From Anabaena subtropica FACHB-260 (GTDB taxonomy: Bacteria > Cyanobacteriota > Cyanobacteriia > Cyanobacteriales > Nostocaceae): a DNA stretch of 64,000 nucleotides. The position numbers and the translations under genes were made by a program. Shown in pieces: positions 38,198 through 47,571 of the stretch. The DNA lies in NCBI RefSeq assembly GCF_014697105.1, contig NZ_JACJRF010000003.1, positions 124,001 to 188,000 on the forward strand. The letters are read 5' to 3'. How positions within the stretch are numbered: position 1 is the stretch's first letter; each line of letters starts with the position of its first letter. The notes beneath the pieces were generated by a model, which worked only from the letters and a program-made list of their open reading frames with translations, did no database searches and had not been told where the DNA came from.

Positions 38198-38956
38198 ATG
38201 AATAAATGGGCAATTTTAAGCGGTATTGAGGGTAACTTGGCGGCTTATGAGGCTGTGATAGCAGATATTAAGCGCCAGATTAATCAAGTTGAAGCTATAT
38301 ATATTTTGGGTGATTTGGTGGGGCCAAGACCAGAAACCGAGAAAGTAGTAGAACGAGTACGCAACCCACGACATGGTGAGTTAGAACCTCTCGTTTGTAA
38401 AGGTTGGTGGGAAGAACAATGTCTGATTTTGCATGGACTTGGCCCTAATGGTGAGGCGAATGATTTAATGGCGCAGTATGGGGGAGAAACTGTTAAGTTA
38501 TTGTTTGAATCTGTTTCTCGTCAAACAGTGCAATGGTTAAGAAATCTTGATTTTGGTTTTTTTGAACTAGATTGTTTATTAATTCACGGCACAACTGTAT
38601 CAATTGATGAAGAATTAACCCCCGATACCCCACCAATTCAAATGCTTGACCGCTTGACAAGAATGCAGGCAAATAATTTATTTTGCGGTCGTTCTGGTTT
38701 AGCTTTTCAATATCAGTTACAAGCAGGTTCAGTGACTACAGATGTCACAACTCTGGATAGTCCAAAATTTCCTCAAACCATGACAATTTCCCCGCGCCAG
38801 ATCATTGGAGTAGGCAATGTAGGCAGAACACTAGGTCTAGCAACCTACACTCTCTATACCCCAAGTACAAATTCTGTGGAATTTAAAACTATCCATTACG
38901 GTGTTAGTCAAGGATTTCAGAACAAGTCAGTTAAAGTCACTTCCACTGAGTTTTAA
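38198..38956 (+). CDS. Degenerate metallophosphoesterase-like protein
   Basis: This 252-residue paralogue of the previous gene begins with KWAILSGIEGNLAAYEAV, in which Asp and His of D-x-H are Gly and Glu. GDLVGPRPE keeps Asp39, but KGWWEEQ replaces GNHD and FCGRSG replaces GHTH. Most metal ligands are thus gone and catalysis is unlikely. It may be a binding or regulatory partner of the upstream protein. It lies 226 bases downstream of that gene with AT-rich short repeats between. ATG 38198 was chosen over an upstream non-ATG start. Confidence 0.8.
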   Translation: MNKWAILSGIEGNLAAYEAVIADIKRQINQVEAIYILGDLVGPRPETEKVVERVRNPRHGELEPLVCKGWWEEQCLILHGLGPNGEANDLMAQYGGETVKLLFESVSRQTVQWLRNLDFGFFELDCLLIHGTTVSIDEELTPDTPPIQMLDRLTRMQANNLFCGRSGLAFQYQLQAGSVTTDVTTLDSPKFPQTMTISPRQIIGVGNVGRTLGLATYTLYTPSTNSVEFKTIHYGVSQGFQNKSVKVTSTEF

Positions 38957-39133
38957 ATACAAGTACTCTCTTTCCGTGATCTTTAACCAATAGTAGAAGA
39001 CGAATACAATCTGATCACACGCCATAACAGTATGAGAAAATTTTGCATCTACTCTACGTAGTAAATATCAAAGTTTGATTTCTGTCTCCAGGTTTATGAA
39101 TTCTTGGCAGAGAGTGCTTATAGTTAAGTTCTT

Positions 39134-39165
39134 AGGTGAGGCTACACCTGGTCACGTAAGTGAGG
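39134..39165 (+). promoter_or_regulatory. Peptide-cassette leader, copy A (hairpin plus ACGTAAGTGAGG)
   Basis: AGGTG at 39134-39138 pairs with CACCT at 39145-39149. ACGTAAGTGAGG follows at 39154-39165, nine bases before an ATG. The layout equals that of the three peptide genes further on. Confidence 0.7.
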
Positions 39166-39174
39166 CTAAAAATC

Positions 39175-39249
39175 ATGTCACTCAAATATTTGCACTTGCA
39201 TTGTTTCTCAATCACTGATTGGTTCAACTGTAATTACCATTCTGAATAA
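39175..39249 (+). CDS. Possible 24-residue peptide gene behind the leader element
   Basis: ATG at 39175, nine bases after the leader motif, opens a 24-residue frame with two Cys, three His and aromatic residues. It starts with MSLKYLHLHC and has no double-glycine leader sequence. It may be a decayed precursor gene, a new type of peptide, or chance. Confidence 0.35.
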   Translation: MSLKYLHLHCFSITDWFNCNYHSE

Positions 39250-40130
39250 ATCCTTGTTGTAGAGCTTTCCTGTTGAAGATTCCCTCGATAGCACCGTAAA
39301 TTTGGGGTTCTTCAGCTAATAGGCGTTGAAATTATCTATTTTCTGCCAAGGTACTAAATATCAGACAGTTTGTAGTCAGGTCTTTATTCCTAATTGTTCT
39401 CAGAACTAAAACGGTGACTAAAAACCCTGCAAACTAGCTTGAAACAGCACTAGAGTGAAGCACATAAAAATGGGGTTAATTATTGCTCTTGTGTGAAGTA
39501 CATACACTATAGAGTGAGTATCTTGCTCACATCAAAAAAAATAATGGTACAAGTATCGTACAAGGAAACTATGTACCGCCGAATAATGAACAAGCTTACT
39601 AGTTATCTAAAAAACATCTAATTTGCATATCAAGTTTTATTTAATTATTTTGGGTGTGCATCTTGTCTGCCCAGGATATGCAGTTAAATGTGGAAAAGGT
39701 TATTACTTTAATATATTTGTTGTGTGCGAGTTTACACAATTCTAGAAAATATTCTAGAAAACGGAATTGGAAAGGAATTTTTCGACCATACTATATCTCA
39801 CTTGTTTCTACATTTTCCTTTGTTGAAGTAGGATATGGCTCTGCTAATGCTGTCAAGTATTATGCAGCTATAAAATCCTTCAACAAAAAAATGGCATTGC
39901 TGAATCAAGGGATGATTTTTGTAGGGTAGCCATCTTACCCACCCGATAAATACACAGGATGGGCATCTTGTCCTTGCTACAAAACTATTAAAATCATCCC
40001 GCATTTATGAAACGTCAAAAAATGAATAGATAAACCCTATCTGTGACGACTAATGTTGAAGTATGTTAACAAACTTCTTGGTGTGTCTTTTTTTGAAAAA
40101 AGGGGAGAGGAGATGATACTAACTCGCTCA

Positions 40131-40142
40131 ACGTAAGTGAGG
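40131..40142 (+). promoter_or_regulatory. Peptide-cassette leader motif, copy B (motif only)
   Basis: ACGTAAGTGAGG is intact, but I see no matching hairpin before it and no start codon at the right distance after it. It is probably a remnant, 342 bases upstream of the HlyD start. Confidence 0.5.
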
Positions 40143-40483
40143 TTTTTGAGGGAGTCTGAGCGTTCTCCTCTATATTGCTCTATACGTTATTCACGTTAGA
40201 GATTAAAGAAAAGCAGGCACAGCTAATAGCGCATCCTTTTCTTATTCCCCATATTCTATTATAGCCAATTATGCAAGTGGGGAGGGGTGATTTTAGATTG
40301 TGGATTAAAAAATCTAAAATCTAAAATCGTAAATCCCAAATTGAAGAGTGAATGGGGGAATATTGCTTTATAAATCGGCAAAATCAACTTGTGAAGCTGT
40401 GAATAACAGCGTCCATGAAAATAAACGAACACATCATTTAATAGCTTTATTTCTGTCACATTCATATATAAAGGTGCAATATC

Positions 40484-42616
40484 GTGAACACCTTACACCG
40501 CCAAGAAAATGATTTTTGGCATCGTTCCAATCAGCAAATTCCAGAGGAGCTTCCTATATTGGAGGCTAATGAGTTTCTTCCCCATATTGGTAAATGGACA
40601 AGTATTGGTGGGGTAGTTGTCTTCTGTATCTTTGTCGCCGGGATAGCTCTTTCATCTATTCTCAAGTACAACGTGACAGTGAAAGTACCTGCAACTATTC
40701 GTCCTGTGGGAGAACTCAAGTTGGTTCAATCGCTGATTAGTGGCAAAATTCTCAACATTGATGTTGCAGAAAATCAGATGGTGGCTGAAGGACAAGCGAT
40801 CGCTCTAATTGATAATTCTCGCCTCCAGACTCAAAAGAGCCAATTACAGAACGTTATTCAGCAAAGTCAACTACAATTCCATAAAATCGATGCCCAATTG
40901 AGAGAAATCGATGCTCAGATTACAGCACAGACAAACTTAAATGAGCGTACAACTATTGCTGCACAAGCTGAACTCAGTGGTACACAACGCAACTATGCAG
41001 ATCAGCAGGTGAAAGCTACGGCTGATATGACTCAAGCACAATCATCCTTAATTCTAGCCAGAATTCAAAAAGACCGTCTGCAACGGGAAAAGCTCTTAAC
41101 AGCAACTGTACGAGAAACAGAAGCCGCCTTAGATTTAGCAAAGGTGCAAAGCGATCGCCTACAACGGGAAAAACTTTTAAAAACCACCGTAGATGAAGCA
41201 GAAACCGCCTTAAACTTGGCTAGAGAACAACGCGATCGCCTGCGGCGGGAAAGGCTGTTAAGGACGACTGTCCAAGAAACAGAAACCGCTTTGAACTTAG
41301 CCAAGGCGCAACAAGAAAGATTGCAGAGAGAACAACTCTTAGCCAAAACTATACAAGAAGCAGAAACAGCCTTGAACTTAGCTAGAAGACAACGCGATCG
41401 CTTACAACAAGACAACTTGTTAACTGCAACTGTACAAGAAGCAGAAGCCGCCTTGACTCTAGCTAGAGTGCAGAGAGAAAGATTACAGCCGATAGTAAAA
41501 TCGGGGGCGATCGCTCGCAGTTTCTTCGAGGAGAAAGAACAAGCTGTATTATCGGCTGAGACGAAGCTTGCTCAAGCTAGGAGTAATGCCAAAAATCTCC
41601 TAGAACAACAACAACAAGCAATAATTTCGGCTGAGGCGAAATTTGAACAAGCCAAGGCTAACGCCAAAAATCTTTTGGAGGAGAAAGAACAGGCTGTCAA
41701 ATCGGCTGAGGCGAAATTTGAACAAGCCAAGGCTAACGCCAAAAATCTTTTGGAGGAGAAAGAACAGGCTGTCAAATCGGCTGAAGCGAAATTTGAACAA
41801 GCCAAGGCTAACGCCAAAAATCTCTTAGAGGAGAAAGAACAGGCTGTCAAATCGGCTGAGGCGAAATTTGAACAAGCCAAGGCTAACGCTAAAAATCTCC
41901 AAGAAGAAAAAGAGCAAGCTTTGATAGTTGCTCAAACAAATTTGCAAAAAGCAAGAACAGCGATAAATCCCAGTGATGCTAACGTGACTGTAGCATCAGA
42001 ACGAATTAAACAAGAACAAGCCAGGGGTGAAGCTACTTTAGCAGCTTTGAAAAAAGAAAGAGAAACCTTACTGCAACAACGTTTAGAATTTCAAAAACAA
42101 CTAGATAGAACTACTAAAGAACTGCAACAAACAGAAAATGACCTGAATCAGAGTGTGATTCGCGCACCCATTGCCGGTACAGTGCTGCAATTGAATTTGC
42201 GTAACCCTGGCCAGGTAGTCCAACCGAGTGAAGCGATCGCTCAGATTGCTCCTTTGAATGCACCAATACAGATTAAAGCTAATATTCAGGCTCAAGATAT
42301 CAACAAGGTCAAACCGGGTCAACAAGTGCAAATGCAGGTGTCAGCTTGTCCCTATCCAGACTACGGAACTCTTAAAGGGACGGTCAAAACAGTTGCACCA
42401 GATGCCTTACCTGTAACTAGCAATAACCCACAAGCTAATGTCACTAAAGCTACAGCCTATGAGGTAATTGTAGAACCACAAACCCTATATGTTGGTAGAG
42501 GCGATCGGCGATGCCAACTCAAAGCCGGGATGCAGGGCAAAGCAGATATTATCTCCCGCCAAGAAACAGTGTTACGCTTCATTCTCCGCAAAGCTAGATT
42601 AATCGCAGATTTGTAA
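40484..42616 (+). CDS. HlyD-family adaptor protein with amplified coiled coil
   Basis: This 710-residue membrane-fusion protein links an ABC exporter to the outer membrane. One membrane segment at about residues 40-60 follows a cytoplasmic N-terminus, then a lipoyl-like half (VKVPATIRPVGELKLVQSLISGKI) and, near the end, SVIRAPIAGTVLQLNLRNPGQVV and the beta-barrel. The middle is a very long coiled coil with about five repeats of 27 residues (DRLQREKLL..TV.E.ETAL) and about six of 25 residues (LLEEKEQAVKSAEAKFEQAK), three of them identical. Length is well above the usual 400-500. The start is GTG 40484. The C39-type ABC gene follows. Confidence 0.92.
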   Translation: MNTLHRQENDFWHRSNQQIPEELPILEANEFLPHIGKWTSIGGVVVFCIFVAGIALSSILKYNVTVKVPATIRPVGELKLVQSLISGKILNIDVAENQMVAEGQAIALIDNSRLQTQKSQLQNVIQQSQLQFHKIDAQLREIDAQITAQTNLNERTTIAAQAELSGTQRNYADQQVKATADMTQAQSSLILARIQKDRLQREKLLTATVRETEAALDLAKVQSDRLQREKLLKTTVDEAETALNLAREQRDRLRRERLLRTTVQETETALNLAKAQQERLQREQLLAKTIQEAETALNLARRQRDRLQQDNLLTATVQEAEAALTLARVQRERLQPIVKSGAIARSFFEEKEQAVLSAETKLAQARSNAKNLLEQQQQAIISAEAKFEQAKANAKNLLEEKEQAVKSAEAKFEQAKANAKNLLEEKEQAVKSAEAKFEQAKANAKNLLEEKEQAVKSAEAKFEQAKANAKNLQEEKEQALIVAQTNLQKARTAINPSDANVTVASERIKQEQARGEATLAALKKERETLLQQRLEFQKQLDRTTKELQQTENDLNQSVIRAPIAGTVLQLNLRNPGQVVQPSEAIAQIAPLNAPIQIKANIQAQDINKVKPGQQVQMQVSACPYPDYGTLKGTVKTVAPDALPVTSNNPQANVTKATAYEVIVEPQTLYVGRGDRRCQLKAGMQGKADIISRQETVLRFILRKARLIADL

Positions 42617-42639
42617 TTTAAGCAGGAAGCAAAGGGCAA

Positions 42640-42790
42640 AGTGAGTTCTACTAAAAATTCCTCTCCATAGCTTGCTTTCCTGTGGAGGTGTAAGTCTACT
42701 CTACAAGGAAAGAGGCTTAAAAAGCCTAATTTTTCATATTTAAGCCCCTCTCCTCTTCAGAAAGGGGTTTGGGAGAGGTTTATCAAACTC
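42640..42790. repeat. Palindromic repeats between HlyD and ABC transporter genes
   Basis: The segment taagcccctctcctcttcag is followed by its partial complement aaaggggtttgggagaggtt, a common Nostoc dispersed palindrome. It may weaken but not exclude readthrough. Confidence 0.5.
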
Positions 42791-42822
42791 ATGTTAACTC
42801 AGCACTCAAATTAAGAATTATT

Positions 42823-44991
42823 ATGTTGAACTTCTTCCAACCGCGAAAAAAGTATCACTCTGTGTTGCAGTTAAGTGAAGAAGATTGTGGAGCTGCTTGT
42901 ATAGTTTCAATTTGTCGGCAATACGGACGCTTTTTAAGCATGAATAAAAGCCGCGAAGCCGTAGGAACTGGACAGCTAGGCACAACTTTATTAGGTCTTA
43001 AACGTGGCTCTGAAAATTTAGGTTTTAACGCCAGAGCTGTTAAAGCTTCACCCGCAATCTTAGACAGAATCAAAGAAATTCAACTACCAGCAATTATTCA
43101 TTGGCGGGGCTATCACTGGGTGGTTTTATACGGTAAACGAGGAAACAAATATGTCATAGCCGATCCAGCTGTAGGTATTCGTTATATCAACCGTGAAGAA
43201 TTCACAGCCGCTTGGAATGGGGTCATGCTCTTAATGGAGCCAGATCACCAGCGCTTCTCGCAACAACCCCAAGACAAACCACAGCCAGGATTTACCCGCT
43301 TTCTCCAGCGCATCTTGCCTTATCGTGGGCTACTATCCCAGGTTTTTATGATCAACATTGTCCTGGGTGTATTGGCTTTAGGTGCGCCTGTCCTGATTCA
43401 ACTGCTGACAGATGATGTTTTAGTTCGCGGCGATACTCAGCTACTAACTGTCATAGTGATAGCCGTTGTTGTGATGAATTTATTTAGTAGTAGTATGCAA
43501 ATACTAGAATCTACTATGATTGCCCATTTTAGCCAACGACTGCAATTAGGTTTAGTGTTGGAATTTGGGCGAAGAATTCTGCAATTGCCATTAACTTATT
43601 ACGAAGCTCGTCGTAGTGGAGAAATCACCAGCCGACTCAGAGATATTAATGAAATCAACCAATTAGTATCACAGGTTGTGGTGCTTTTACCTAGCCAATT
43701 TTTTGTTGCAATAATTTCATTTGGCTTAATGGTGTTTTATAGTTGGCAACTTGCATTAGCTGTAATTTTCATTGGCGTGTTGATGAGTTTATCTACTTTG
43801 CCATTTTTACCAGTCTTACAACAAAAGACTCGCAGCCTTTTAGTATTGGGGTCAGAAAATCAAGGCGTTTTGGTAGAAACTTTTAAAGGCGCACAAGTAC
43901 TTAAAACCACAAATGCAGCTCCACAATTTTGGGATGAATTACAAAATCGTTTTGGTCGTCTGGCAAATTTAACTTTTGGTACTATTCAAATTGGCATTAT
44001 CAACAACACTATTTCTAAATTTCTCTCTACTATCGGCGGCGTAGTTTTATTAGGACTAGGAAGTATTTTAGTAATTCAGGGGAATTTAAGCATTGGTCAA
44101 ATGTTAGCGATTAATGCTCTACAAGTTAATGTGCTGACATTAATTAGTTCTCTAGTAGGTTTAGTGGATGAATATTTTCGTTCCCAAACTGCTATCTCTC
44201 GTCTTCTGGAAGTGATTGATGCTACTCCAGAAGTAGATGATAAATCTCAAAAACCATTTGCACAAATCTCTAGTGATGCGGATATTCGTTTTTCCCATAT
44301 CAATTTTCACCATCCTGGTAGAGTTGACCTATTAGAAGATTTTTCCCTCAAGCTACCAGGAGGAAAAATCATTGCTTTAATTGGCAAGTCAGGCTGTGGT
44401 AAAAGTTCCTTAGCCAAAATCATGGCAGGATTATATGAGCCAAATTCTGGTAATATCCGCATTGGTTTTTATAATATTCATGACCTTGCCCTTGATTGTT
44501 TGCGACAGCAAGTAGTTTATGTACCCCAAGAACCTCATTTTTGGAGTCGCTCAATTTTAGAGAACTTTCGTTTAGGAAGTCCCCATATTTCCTTTGAAGA
44601 AATTGCCACGGCTTGTCAAATTGCTGATGCTGATAGTTTTATTAGCCAACTACCAAATAAGTATCAAACAGTGTTAGGTGAATTTGGGGCAAATCTCTCT
44701 GGAGGACAAAAACAAAGATTAGCGATCGCCAGAGGTATTCTCACTAATCCACCAGTACTAATTTTAGATGAAGCAACAGCAGGATTAGATCCAGTTAGTG
44801 AAACTCAAGTTCTTGATCAACTTTTAGAATCACGCCAAGGTAAAACCACAATTCTTATTACCCATCGTCCCAGCGTAGTCCATCGCGCTGATTGGATTGT
44901 TTTACTAGATCAAGGTAAAGTACAACTACAAGGAACTTTAGAATATTTTCTCTCTCAACAAGGAGAACATCTAAAATTCTTATCACTATGA
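42823..44991 (+). CDS. Peptidase-containing ABC exporter (C39 peptidase, PCAT type)
   Basis: This 722-residue exporter cuts double-glycine leaders and exports the peptide. The N-terminal C39 peptidase has QLSEEDCGAACI with catalytic Cys, GYHWVVLYG with His and ADPA with Asp. Six membrane helices follow (about residues 150-450), then the ATPase with Walker A IGKSGCGKSSLA, signature NLSGGQKQRLAIARG, Walker B LILDEATAGLD and ITHRPSVV. ATG at 42823 starts the conserved N-terminus. With the HlyD protein before it and three matching double-glycine precursors after it, the system is complete except for an outer-membrane TolC-like channel, which may be encoded elsewhere. Confidence 0.95.
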   Translation: MLNFFQPRKKYHSVLQLSEEDCGAACIVSICRQYGRFLSMNKSREAVGTGQLGTTLLGLKRGSENLGFNARAVKASPAILDRIKEIQLPAIIHWRGYHWVVLYGKRGNKYVIADPAVGIRYINREEFTAAWNGVMLLMEPDHQRFSQQPQDKPQPGFTRFLQRILPYRGLLSQVFMINIVLGVLALGAPVLIQLLTDDVLVRGDTQLLTVIVIAVVVMNLFSSSMQILESTMIAHFSQRLQLGLVLEFGRRILQLPLTYYEARRSGEITSRLRDINEINQLVSQVVVLLPSQFFVAIISFGLMVFYSWQLALAVIFIGVLMSLSTLPFLPVLQQKTRSLLVLGSENQGVLVETFKGAQVLKTTNAAPQFWDELQNRFGRLANLTFGTIQIGIINNTISKFLSTIGGVVLLGLGSILVIQGNLSIGQMLAINALQVNVLTLISSLVGLVDEYFRSQTAISRLLEVIDATPEVDDKSQKPFAQISSDADIRFSHINFHHPGRVDLLEDFSLKLPGGKIIALIGKSGCGKSSLAKIMAGLYEPNSGNIRIGFYNIHDLALDCLRQQVVYVPQEPHFWSRSILENFRLGSPHISFEEIATACQIADADSFISQLPNKYQTVLGEFGANLSGGQKQRLAIARGILTNPPVLILDEATAGLDPVSETQVLDQLLESRQGKTTILITHRPSVVHRADWIVLLDQGKVQLQGTLEYFLSQQGEHLKFLSL

Positions 44992-45412
44992 ATAAATATG
45001 ATTTTTCGTTATACAGAAATAAGATTTGATTTTTGTTAGCATAGCCTGCGGTTCTGCGTCAAAATCTCAGTATACGTTTGGTGGATATTGCCCACCAAAA
45101 TATTGATATATTAGTCTTTTTATAAAAATTTTTCGCCCTCGAAAAGATACTACACAAAAAATAATCAGGAAAATTTTGATAGGCTAAATTATATTTATTT
45201 ACTTAAATATCATCTTTTTAGCAAAAAATATCATAAATATAATATGTATATTTTAGGGATATAATTTATTATGTTTCTATATTTGCTTGAGCTTTAAATC
45301 CTCCACAAAAATGCTATTTTATTTGCAATTCATGATTCAAAAGAAATAAATTTTTATTTTATAAATACCACCACAGACTAATTTAAAAATACAGTAATTA
45401 TTTCATAATAAA
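44992..45412. other. AT-rich intergenic region before the first peptide cassette
   Basis: Very AT-rich. I see no gene. A fragment of the Nostoc repeat gttagcatagcctgcggttc lies at about 45035. The promoter of the first peptide gene is probably here. Confidence 0.5.
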
Positions 45413-45415
45413 AAC

Positions 45416-45452
45416 ATAGGTAATAACAAACCTATATTGTACGTAAGTGAGG
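45416..45452 (+). promoter_or_regulatory. Peptide-cassette leader, copy C
   Basis: ATAGGT at 45416-45421 pairs with ACCTAT at 45430-45435. ACGTAAGTGAGG follows at 45441-45452, ten bases before the ATG of peptide 1. GAGG can also act as the ribosome site. Confidence 0.8.
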
Positions 45453-45462
45453 TAAAAAATTC

Positions 45463-45663
45463 ATGTCAAACCAAATGCTTGTTTCTAACTTACTTGAGGA
45501 TCTATCCTTAGATCAACAGCAATCTTTAGCTGGTGGTCAATGGTTTGAAGATGGAGAAGGTGAAGGTGAAAGTGAAACTGTAAGCGGTGCTAGTACCGGC
45601 GAGACTCGTCGTTATAGAGTTAGAAGCGTCGGCATTATTAGTGTACGCAAATTATCCAGTTAA
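45463..45663 (+). CDS. Double-glycine-leader peptide precursor 1
   Basis: This 66-residue precursor has a leader ending LSLDQQQSLAGG (Gly24-Gly25), which fits the C39 cleavage consensus. The predicted product of 41 residues begins with an acidic run (EDGEGEGESE) and ends with a basic part (RRYRVRSVGIISVRKLSS). It contains no Cys. It is the first of three leader-sharing genes after the C39 exporter. The product may be a bacteriocin-like or signalling peptide. The activity is not predictable from sequence. Confidence 0.85.
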   Translation: MSNQMLVSNLLEDLSLDQQQSLAGGQWFEDGEGEGESETVSGASTGETRRYRVRSVGIISVRKLSS

Positions 45664-45760
45664 TAGTGAGTGGAGTGAACTGAAATAAACTGCCAAAATC
45701 TAATTCTATTTGAGTGAGTATTTTTGGCCAGTCTCCTCTTTTCTGCTAAAGACAATTAAG

Positions 45761-45790
45761 CTAGGCACTATTATTAGTGTCTAGTTTTCT
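45761..45790 (+). terminator. Terminator of peptide gene 1
   Basis: CTAGGCACTA at 45761-45770 pairs, with one G-U, with TAGTGTCTAG at 45775-45784, followed by TTTTCT. Confidence 0.65.
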
Positions 45791-45924
45791 GCTATTCTTT
45801 CATTTATCAAAAAAATCTCATTATAATGACCATTTCTCATAAACCGAAAGTTAGATATTTAATTAAATATTTTATAACTAAAGAATAATTTAAAAAAGAT
45901 AGTAATAGTGAAAAATAAAATTAT

Positions 45925-45956
45925 TAGGTGTTAGACACCTATGTAAGTAAGTGAGG
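45925..45956 (+). promoter_or_regulatory. Peptide-cassette leader, copy D
   Basis: TAGGTGT at 45925-45931 pairs with ACACCTA at 45935-45941. GTAAGTGAGG follows at 45947-45956, nine bases before the ATG of peptide 2. The stem bases differ from copies C and E but pairing is kept. Confidence 0.8.
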
Positions 45957-45965
45957 TAAATAATT

Positions 45966-46121
45966 ATGTCCAACCAAAAAAATACAACCGACTTGTTTGT
46001 TGATTTATCTACAGATGAACAGCAACTTCTATCAGGAGGACAACAAGAAGGTTTTACAGGTGGAAGTGGAGGATGTTTCAGGTTTAGAAGATGTGTTAGG
46101 AGATGCTTACGATTCTCTTAA
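45966..46121 (+). CDS. Double-glycine-leader peptide precursor 2, cationic Cys-rich
   Basis: This 51-residue precursor starts at ATG 45966. The leader ends LSTDEQQLLSGG (Gly24-Gly25). The 26-residue product contains a Gly-rich linker and then a C-terminal block, residues 37-51, with three Cys (37, 43, 47) and six Arg, spaced CFRFRRCVRRCLRFS. A short Arg- and aromatic-rich stretch with Cys is typical of antimicrobial peptides. It would be missed by a 60-residue cutoff. Confidence 0.85.
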   Translation: MSNQKNTTDLFVDLSTDEQQLLSGGQQEGFTGGSGGCFRFRRCVRRCLRFS

Positions 46122-46171
46122 TTTGGCAAAATCAACGGACTAACTAGTTCCATAATTTAAACTTCGATGTT

Positions 46172-46214
46172 GCACCCATGCAGGGATTTTACCTGTATGG
46201 GTGCTATCTATTTT
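46172..46214 (+). terminator. Terminator of peptide gene 2
   Basis: GCACCCATGCAGG at 46172-46184 pairs with CCTGTATGGGTGC at 46192-46204 (one G-U), followed by a T-rich stretch. Confidence 0.75.
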
Positions 46215-46364
46215 CTGGAATTAATTATGCAAGAAACATGAATATTTTATGAGCAAAAAAAACATTTTAAATGTTTTAATTCAAGACCTAAAGTTAGAAT
46301 TGCTGCATATTTTTTTATATCCAAAGGATAATTTTTTTTGAAAAAAATATATTTATAACAGAAG

Positions 46365-46399
46365 CATAGGTGATTAAAACCTATGTAACGTAAGTGAGG
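46365..46399 (+). promoter_or_regulatory. Peptide-cassette leader, copy E
   Basis: CATAGGT at 46365-46371 pairs with ACCTATG at 46379-46385. ACGTAAGTGAGG follows at 46388-46399, nine bases before the ATG of peptide 3. Confidence 0.8.
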
Positions 46400-46408
46400 T
46401 AATTAATT

Positions 46409-46678
46409 ATGTTGAGTCAAACAATTGCATCCGATTTATTAGCTGATTTATCCACAGATGAACAACAACTTTTAGCTGGCGGTTTTAGAAAATCTATGCG
46501 TGGTTGTGGTTGTAATGGTGGTAGTGGTAATGTCGGTACTGAAGGGTCAACTCCAGCAGTATCACCTATTAAAACACGTATGGCAGTGGGTCACATAATA
46601 ACAGTGTCACCATTTGCCAAGTGCTTAAATGGTGGCACAACTAATGGAAGTGGCACAACTAATGGAAATGATGACTAA
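46409..46678 (+). CDS. Double-glycine-leader peptide precursor 3
   Basis: This 89-residue precursor has the leader SDLLADLSTDEQQLLAGG (Gly24-Gly25), almost the same as in peptide 2. The predicted 64-residue product begins with a basic segment (FRKSMRGCGCNGG), has three Cys (two in GCGC and one in AKCLNGG), a hydrophobic middle (MAVGHIITVSPF) and a Gly/Thr/Asn-rich tail with two copies of GTTNG. It could be processed to a disulfide-bonded or modified peptide. No modification enzyme is in the window. Confidence 0.85.
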   Translation: MLSQTIASDLLADLSTDEQQLLAGGFRKSMRGCGCNGGSGNVGTEGSTPAVSPIKTRMAVGHIITVSPFAKCLNGGTTNGSGTTNGNDD

Positions 46679-46774
46679 TGAGATTCTAATGACTCACTCA
46701 AGAAGAATCAAATCTTGAGGAGGTTTGGATAATCTCTTCTGTTCTCTGAATTAAATCAACAAAAAAGAGATATA

Positions 46775-46810
46775 AAAACTAGGTGTTAGTTGTAACACCT
46801 AGTTTTCATT
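46775..46810 (+). terminator. Terminator of peptide gene 3 (also faces the Uma2 gene)
   Basis: AAAACTAGGTGTTA at 46775-46788 pairs perfectly with TAACACCTAGTTTT at 46793-46806. The T run in the second arm marks a strong terminator, usable from both sides. Confidence 0.85.
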
Positions 46811-46848
46811 TTCTCCATGATTTCATTACAAGTAGCTTGTAATTAATT

Positions 46849-47571
46849 TCAAACCATCGTTTCTGGCTCAAAACCTAGTGATTTTAACCTTTCTGCTAAA
46901 ATTTGCACTTGTTTTTCTGCATCTAAACGTCGATATTCTTCAAGATTTGCTCTTTGTTCTGCTTCCAAAAGACGCTCTTCAGGGGTAAGCAGCCTTTCCC
47001 CTTTCTCGTCATACCAGTACAACCACTCCCGCGCTATGCCTTGATAAACTCCCCGTTCTCGTCCAATTCCTAAACCAATTTCTGGCAACCAAATCGAATC
47101 TCCTGACATGAGGATATATTCCCCATCTTCTAACCGATACACTTCCAGGGGTGGTTTCTTGCGCCGAAAAGGATTGTACACAACGTAGTATAAAATTCCT
47201 AATTCTTTAGCATATAACTCTTTTTTGCTGCTATATTCTCCTAGATGTTTTGGGGAAGCAACCTCCACCACTAAAACAGGTGGTTTTTTTTCTTCCCACA
47301 ATACATAACTCAGGCGTAAGTCCCCATCAATAAAGCGGTTAACTTCTATGCTGAGAAACCCATCTGGTACAATTGCTGGCTTTTTCGGGTCATAATATAT
47401 ACCCATATTTACACCAAAGTACCAATTCCATCGCTCTGCCCACACTAAGGATAGTGTCGATTTTAACAAGCTAGGAATTAAATCTTGTAGTTCATTATCC
47501 ACAGGCGTATCATCAGAATCGGGTAACTCTTCAGACGATGGTAAACAGTGTAACGGGTTGTAGTTTAACAT
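46849..47571 (-). CDS. Uma2 family PD-(D/E)XK endonuclease-like protein
   Basis: This 240-residue Uma2/DUF820 member shows IVPDGFLS with the metal-binding Asp, VLVVEVASPKHL with Glu, and SSKKELYAKELGILYYVVYNPF. A C-terminal coiled-coil tail (TPEERLLEAEQRANLEEYRRLDAE) is usual in this subgroup. It is convergent with the third peptide gene and shares a terminator with it. Function unknown, and fold-based nuclease activity is an inference. Confidence 0.87.
   Translation of the reverse strand: MLNYNPLHCLPSSEELPDSDDTPVDNELQDLIPSLLKSTLSLVWAERWNWYFGVNMGIYYDPKKPAIVPDGFLSIEVNRFIDGDLRLSYVLWEEKKPPVLVVEVASPKHLGEYSSKKELYAKELGILYYVVYNPFRRKKPPLEVYRLEDGEYILMSGDSIWLPEIGLGIGRERGVYQGIAREWLYWYDEKGERLLTPEERLLEAEQRANLEEYRRLDAEKQVQILAERLKSLGFEPETMV

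Follow-up and report, generated by a model that had tools for sequence, protein, structure and literature searches.

In a 64,000-nucleotide stretch of the Anabaena subtropica FACHB-260 genome (assembly GCF_014697105.1, contig NZ_JACJRF010000003.1, positions 124,001 to 188,000 of the forward strand; the window in the following, meaning this whole stretch), a hairpin followed by the ten-letter motif GTAAGTGAGG (the 10-mer) recurs in front of small open reading frames (ORFs) near the genes for a peptide exporter, which raises the question whether this arrangement is a control element in its own right or an elaborate ribosome site. A first-pass annotation had described four copies sharing one layout of hairpin, motif and ATG, and had suggested a control element common to the gene family. 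With somewhat better than even confidence, which covers the mechanism as well, the leader element is here regarded as a Nostocaceae-wide expression module for exported double-glycine (GG) peptides. Its parts, their spacing, conservation and pairing, the association with genes and the genome-wide specificity were read directly from sequence. Two components had not been noticed before, namely a promoter-like block upstream of the hairpin and a second hairpin, also containing the 10-mer, ahead of the adaptor gene hlyD.

Five exact copies of GTAAGTGAGG were found in the window, at 39156, 40133, 45443, 45947 and 46390. The layout described previously was confirmed at 39156, 45443, 45947 and 46390, where the 10-mer is followed by 9, 10, 9 and 9 bases, respectively, and then by ATG; the copy at 40133, which has a different structure, had been missed. 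With up to one mismatch to GTAAGTGAGG allowed, 9 matches were counted in the window compared to 3.05 expected, and 9 was reached by none of 100 shuffles. The sequence CGTAAGTGAGG occurs four times in the 5.8 Mb genome, every time within this locus. The bare 10-mer occurs 15 times genome-wide, as often as its reversed control (15), and is thus not enriched; the specificity lies in the combination of the 10-mer with stem and start codon. The copies in this layout, with the models R1 (leader element) and R2 (promoter-like block) described below, are arranged as follows.

39041..39128, + strand: promoter-like block (boxes U1 and U2, -10-like box), copy 1; R2, E 2.3e-8; outside the R2 training set
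39113..39177, + strand: leader element copy 1; R1, E 7.9e-10; outside the R1 training set; stem 39133-39150 (TAGGTG/CACCTG, T-G outer pair), 10-mer 39156-39165, ATG 39175
45328..45414, + strand: promoter-like block, copy 2; R2, E 3.1e-8; in the training set
45398..45465, + strand: leader element copy 2; R1, E 1.4e-13; in the training set; stem 45416-45435 (ATAGGT/ACCTAT), 10-mer 45443-45452
45463..45663, + strand: peptide 1, 66 amino acids (aa), GG-type leader
45833..45920, + strand: promoter-like block, copy 3; R2, E 6.2e-8; in the training set
45905..45968, + strand: leader element copy 3; R1, E 2.7e-12; in the training set; stem 45925-45941 (TAGGTGT/ACACCTA), 10-mer 45947-45956
45966..46121, + strand: peptide 2, 51 aa, GG-type leader
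46284..46363, + strand: promoter-like block, copy 4; R2, E 8.7e-9; in the training set
46348..46411, + strand: leader element copy 4; R1, E 5.8e-15; in the training set; stem 46364-46386 (GCATAGGT/ACCTATGT, one G-T pair), 10-mer 46390-46399
46409..46678, + strand: peptide 3, 89 aa, GG-type leader

The earlier statement that the element stands before each peptide gene held for the three GG peptides and failed for copy 1, downstream of which there is a 24-codon ORF without GG motif and no recognisable peptide gene. Since in several relatives the same first element of the locus directly precedes peptides of the CTB type, copy 1 probably remains from a CTB-type peptide gene that has been lost here.

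Beyond the window the element was followed with R1, a covariance model of 63 positions and 8 pairs built from 64 sequences. These remained of 81 non-redundant elements (at most one mismatch to the 10-mer, GG ORF downstream) after 17, mostly without typical stem, had been left out; this omission precedes alignment A2, model R1 and the pairing and shuffle test on 64 sequences, and the stem test on 69 elements was performed without it. In its own genome R1 found exactly the four elements (E <= 7.9e-10; next match E 0.28), and matches were obtained in 70 of 145 Nostocaceae genomes and 30 of 56 genera. In 72 loci, fetched at high-scoring places among the R1 matches listed, 117 matches were present, 108 of which have at the model's end an ORF no longer than 220 aa that carries a GG-type leader (8 with a GTG start); the criterion was a loose one, a small or hydrophobic residue followed by GG or AG within roughly 45 aa. 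The other 9 precede ORFs of 3 to 36 codons, some resembling decayed members. The covariance search and double-glycine check that the first-pass annotation had called for thus bore out a family-wide control element extending beyond the ribosome site, and matches mostly away from peptide genes, which it had named as a possible refutation, were not what was found. Many training rows of R1 and R2 stem from genomes or loci that are counted again in these tallies; 31 of the 117 matches reach a similarity of 0.90 or more to some training row. The remaining 86 stay below 0.90 for every row; a GG-type ORF follows 78 of them, and the exact 10-mer is present in 48. TGAGG is present in the 3' part of 107 of the 117.

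When the GG-leader ORFs in the relatives' loci were taken as the starting point (153 in total), the exact 10-mer was found just upstream of 64 and a form with one mismatch upstream of 6 more, placed 8-10 nt before the start in 68 of these 70. Alignment A1 was built from peptides found via the motif and is not independent evidence. Several members of the CTB family NF038167 in relatives carry the leader element. The simple pattern GTAAGTGAGGT-N(3-12)-ATG was present in 46 of 99 relatives compared to 22 of 99 for a reversed control, a count diluted by chance matches and by dispersed repeats in genomes G009 and G015. Outside the family, in 40 genomes from elsewhere in the order, no GG ORF follows the pattern matches that were inspected. 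A scan of one genome per species (84,980 species) gave at least 117 stretches; in 80 of those 117, labelled as cyanobacterial or not by record title, a GG ORF with ATG start follows 23 of 29 cyanobacterial sites and none of 55 others. In the loci examined, this sequence-defined module marks GG-peptide genes with few or no false matches, and it is usable for finding GG peptides, for capturing regulators and for testing RNA-level coordination of cargo and exporter via one common 10-mer. As a separate observation, dispersed repeats of the type acagcacttttgaaGTAAGTGAGGTACATCATGAGTAATG (L061, L077-L081; genomes G009, G011, G015) contain the 10-mer and are apparently unrelated to peptide genes.

The 5' hairpin was analysed for pairing and for covariation. 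Just upstream of the motif, a stem score of at least 14 was reached in 53 of 69 elements, compared to a mean of 7.1 elements (at most 14) in 200 dinucleotide shuffles; in a control stretch further upstream it was reached in 6 of the elements. In the 64 aligned sequences 81.9% of cells pair, a value that none of 500 shuffles reached (best slide 47.8%). Covariation, folding and box analyses were based on 63 non-redundant elements (the same 63 as in alignment A4), obtained from 65 by dropping L253 (a chance match in a non-cyanobacterial genome) and one of the copies in L263. ACCT is followed by A in all 63, a base that had played no part in the selection. Covariation was found at the pairs flanking the core (next pair outward and first pair inside, p 0.0002 and 0.0004), five off-register controls gave p 0.97 or above, and no excess was seen for further pairs (outward p 0.088, 0.99 and 0.73; inward 0.96 and 0.997). 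Of the earlier claim that the stem varies while its pairing is kept, compensatory change at two positions flanking the core is what stands; in the core UAGGU/ACCUA it is the sequence itself that is conserved. In 60 of 63 elements 7 or 8 bases separate the arms, the outer pair is G-T in 3 of 63, and other members carry other stems in the same place (AAGTAG/CTACTT, TTAAGAGG/CCTCTTAA). Between the presumed start and the motif, the predicted fold has -7.3 kcal/mol compared to -2.1 after shuffling. Judged from these results, the stem is real.

Upstream of the hairpin, 65 non-redundant elements (of 268) anchored on TAGGT display near-background letters from -200 to about -95 and, downstream of about -95, two conserved boxes and a -10-like box. 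Box U2 reads TTTATAACTNNAGAATAATTTA, where C and G in the CTNNAG core reach 96% (63 elements, small shifts allowed). Box U1 lies 33 bp upstream of U2 in 45 of 63 and fits it as reverse complement (8.3, compared to -9.0 in the direct sense), the inverted CTNNAG boxes being centred near -75 and -42. The -10-like box, TTAATAATAAA, has a constant distance to U2 in 49 of 63. Because it ends about 6-7 nt before the stem among the sequences listed, transcripts probably begin at the hairpin. R2, a sequence-only model of this upstream block, found in its own genome the same four places as R1 (E <= 6.2e-8; next 0.0024) and was in register before 101 of the 117 R1 matches. At 11 places R2 matched without R1 in register and without overlap of an opposite-strand R1-linked match; a GG-leader ORF lies downstream of all 11, and one of them (L396) is slightly further upstream of an R1 match. 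Second genes inside operons lack the hairpin but retain GTAAGTGAGG or a close variant; the two are therefore separable parts, the hairpin belonging with the promoter and the 10-mer with the cistron. Another class of leaders, here called third-class, combines the same promoter-like block with a longer hairpin (GGTACNACAC..GTGTGTACC type) and has TTTGAGG ahead of the start codon.

L335:841-928 (- strand), L341:8750, L342:9005, L343:8575, L365:191 (- strand), L381:7649, L383:7656: third-class leaders

In L089:1368-1457 and L141:1119-1208, the two boxes together make up an inverted repeat that is long and almost perfect (CTCTAGCGAGAAA..TTTCTCGCTAGAG in L089), and the dyad is visible by eye. Second genes of CTB operons (L350:1068-1144, L370:1117-1193 and L384:1167-1224, all on the - strand; L114, L117) have a conserved TGGAATCC stretch before GTAAGTGAGG and no hairpin.

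The fifth exact copy of the 10-mer belongs to the second hairpin, ahead of hlyD.

40091..40201, + strand: hlyD-leader hairpin with the 10-mer (40133-40142) in its apical loop; model R3, E 3.1e-29; in the training set

The pattern used to collect the 37 rows of alignment A5 contains the 10-mer and tolerates as many as 4 mismatches in 20; L178 and L209 were omitted as unrelated. Common to the 37 rows are two stems, the outer one AGAGGAGA/TTCTCCTCT and the inner one ACTC.CTCAA/TTGAG.GAGT, and CGTAAGTGAGG in the apical loop. Changes on both sides were seen in seven pairs (reached by 3 of 500 shuffles) and 91% of cells pair (0 of 500 shuffles; best slide 61.6%). An alternative pairing, CGCTCAA/TTGAGCG, in which 95% of cells pair, was rejected for its lack of covariation. 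Model R3 matched in 59 of 145 Nostocaceae genomes and 25 of 56 genera, with exactly one strong copy (E <= 2.0e-18) in 57 genomes. Each of the best 30 R3 matches contains the exact 10-mer and is followed on its own strand, 249-758 nt downstream, by an hlyD start, and a GG-type ORF upstream of the hairpin was recognised in 20 of these 30, some doubtful; on this distribution the hairpin is associated with hlyD and not with the upstream peptides. No start codon follows the 10-mer here. Because a T-rich stretch follows in many members, termination or attenuation at this hairpin is possible. The hairpin is a second conserved structured RNA, a candidate attenuator or protein-binding hairpin. Weak relatives of it were seen directly after peptide genes (window 46661-46767, L327:1295-1403, L329:2705-2813, L396:3167-3274), several with the loop AUAAAUCAG in place of GUAAGUGAGG.

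The mechanism proposed for these parts applies to genes that head a transcript. An activator would probably bind the inverted CTNNAG boxes, 33 bp apart, and transcription would start at the 5' hairpin, usually UAGGU..ACCUA, followed by 5-7 nt, GUAAGUGAGG and, about 9 nt on, the start codon. The hairpin would cap the 5' end and probably shield the mRNA from 5'-end-dependent decay. GAGG would act as Shine-Dalgarno core, and the longer GUAAGUGAGG would be read by a shared trans-acting factor which, through the same 10-mer in the apical loop of the hlyD hairpin, would tune exporter and cargo together. The strongest argument for such a factor comes from the retention of an identical 10-mer in two settings that are otherwise unrelated and of which one lacks a start codon; this suggests common control of cargo and exporter. 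Activator-dependent transcription from a protective 5' hairpin, joined to an extended ribosome-site motif read by a factor shared with the hlyD leader, is what we consider the best account, at odds slightly above even. A bolder version, put forward tentatively and with clearly less confidence, is that GUAAGUGAGG may be the address tag of a post-transcriptional regulon, in which a single dedicated RNA-binding factor reads the ribosome sites of numerous different peptides and the hlyD-hairpin loop and sets exporter and cargo in step, or gathers the mRNAs at the membrane, on top of an activator of the paired CTNNAG boxes.

Several results weigh against this proposal. R2 is absent in register at 16 of the 117 R1 matches (about eight of them operon-internal second genes), the exact 10-mer is present in only 78 and the TAGGT..ACCT stem in only 86. 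Both the R1 rows, preselected at no more than one mismatch, and the pattern for the hlyD hairpins include the 10-mer, and its invariance there is for this reason partly selection; the argument from two settings is likewise weakened, as the search pattern that led to the hlyD hairpins of A5 already included these letters. The core UAGGU/ACCUA of the 5' hairpin is nearly invariant, the 64 sequences show no excess over shuffles in pairs changed on both sides (4; 216 of 500 shuffles), RNAalifold gave no pairs for the raw alignment A2, and in third-class hairpins z was -2.0 or lower in only 3 of 9. Start site, activator, stabilisation, factor and the direction of the factor's effect are all deduced from sequence comparisons.

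The near-constant core invites a reading at the DNA level, in which the inverted repeat TAGGT-N7-ACCTA would be an operator near +1 for a dimeric regulator, the RNA hairpin being incidental and GTAAGTGAGG merely an extended ribosome site. Sequence conservation of TAGGT/ACCTA and an arm spacing of 7 or 8 in 60 of 63 elements agree with it, and operators too acquire matched changes; stems with unlike arms in the same place, the longer hairpin under the same block in third-class leaders and the outer G-T in 3 of 63 do not, and the 10-mer in the hlyD hairpin would be left unexplained, so that an operator is considered unlikely. The 10-mer by itself might be the target of a base-pairing small RNA such as Yfr1, whose conserved CCUCAC is complementary to GUGAGG. 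In Nostoc sp. PCC 7120, according to the part of the report consulted, Yfr1 acts close to start codons and has CCUC-AC at bases 27-32 (PMC6974561). Judged by eye from a partial Yfr1 sequence, 6 nt of the motif would pair. However, 9 of the 10 other 10-mers in the own genome lie within long open frames and offer no small-RNA candidate, the tenth (L317) being intergenic; an antisense RNA gene was rejected on the same nine. The GUAA half of the motif, which we take not to be complementary to the Yfr1 motif, also counts against this explanation, and a small RNA of this kind appears still less likely than an operator.

A switch, as in a thermometer or a riboswitch-like mask, in which upstream AGGU and ribosome-site GAGGU compete for the ACCU of the stem, would draw on the complementarity of ACCT to GAGGT in many members. 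The alternative pair is weakened by GAGGC in 19 of 64 aligned members, no Rfam thermometer or riboswitch was found at threshold, and the 10-mer has a predicted openness of 0.329, and of 0.352 once the upstream sequence is shuffled (p 0.07; modelled for 37 °C only). In this model the conserved stem does not hold the ribosome site in structure, masking is not supported, and such a switch is very improbable. That the likeness reflects nothing but common descent of tandemly copied genes, with a leader devoid of separate function, would suit the tandem arrangement and the related peptide leaders (61% mean column identity). Yet 65 elements less than 72% identical over 115 bases have their boxes at fixed places and background letters beyond about -95, R1 spans 30 of 56 genera, and the 10-mer is kept ahead of hlyD without a following start codon; descent alone is scarcely credible. 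A plain optimal Shine-Dalgarno sequence was rejected as well, as in the aligned rows (chosen at no more than one mismatch to the motif) U precedes GAGG where G would pair better with the tail of the 16S rRNA.

The expression module can be compared with known leaders and peptide systems. GAGG, which the first-pass annotation had considered a possible ribosome site, agrees with a Shine-Dalgarno sequence (purine core 5-10 nt before the start) and lies 8-10 nt before the start in 68 of 70 cases. The differences are that conservation extends upstream to GTAAGT and that the same 10-mer occurs in the hlyD hairpin without start codon. The ompA mRNA of E. coli has a stabilising 5'-terminal stem-loop, which resembles a hairpin at a probable 5' end shortly before the ribosome site; the hairpin described here differs in that it accompanies a single gene family and comes together with a conserved promoter-like block and a fixed 10-mer. 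The view that no element of such form had been described was upheld, in that Rfam 15 gave 0 matches above gathering threshold in the window and, at E <= 5, just 4 sub-threshold matches in 38900-46900, none on the elements, and no description was found in the literature searched, which covers few subscription journals. Among the titles listed for the 10-mer as text, none concerns such an element, and neither do two papers that contain the 10-mer and also mention cyanobacteria. Widespread cyanobacterial double-glycine (bacteriocin-type) clusters with C39 exporter, HlyD and GG-leader precursors, as here, have been described by Wang et al. 2011 (PMC3140520); the consulted portion of that article yielded no control element, and its main text is without 'promoter', 'hairpin' and 'ribosome binding'. 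The EbfG/PteB system of Synechococcus elongatus likewise has GG peptides that are exported via a C39 transporter and co-regulated, and in the portion of the report consulted the mechanism of gene control is stated to be unknown (PMC4997328). Control by phosphate was rejected, since in Nodularia spumigena one CTB operon was induced without phosphate and a second cluster, NSP_RS06270-06290, was unaffected, as far as the consulted part of the source goes (PMC9846622). By interpolation from gene numbers, the second cluster would be the homologue of this locus.

The remaining features of the locus are the exporter genes and a weak hairpin relative.

40484..42616, + strand: HlyD-family adaptor of the exporter; Pfam HlyD_3 5.1e-19
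42823..44991, + strand: C39 peptidase-containing ABC exporter; Pfam Peptidase_C39 4.5e-36, ABC_tran 3.6e-32
46661..46767, + strand: weak relative of the hlyD-leader hairpin, without 10-mer, directly 3' of peptide 3; R3, E 2.2e-4

With a C39 peptidase-ABC protein, an HlyD adaptor and GG-leader ORFs in one locus, the gene content is that of a C39/HlyD export system, and the three GG-leader peptides are its predicted substrates. Compared with the CTB family bacteriocin NF038167 they are of like leader type, the leaders matching and the cores not, and with 18.6, 25.2 and 16.2 bits they score below the curated cut-off of 32. Among the ORFs of the related locus L342, inspected by eye and without family search, no regulator gene was recognised. 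The window hlyD contains tandem coiled-coil repeats (KSAEAKFEQAKANAKNLLEEKEQAV) at 41500-41920, and its product has 710 aa compared to 505 aa in L342 and L335.

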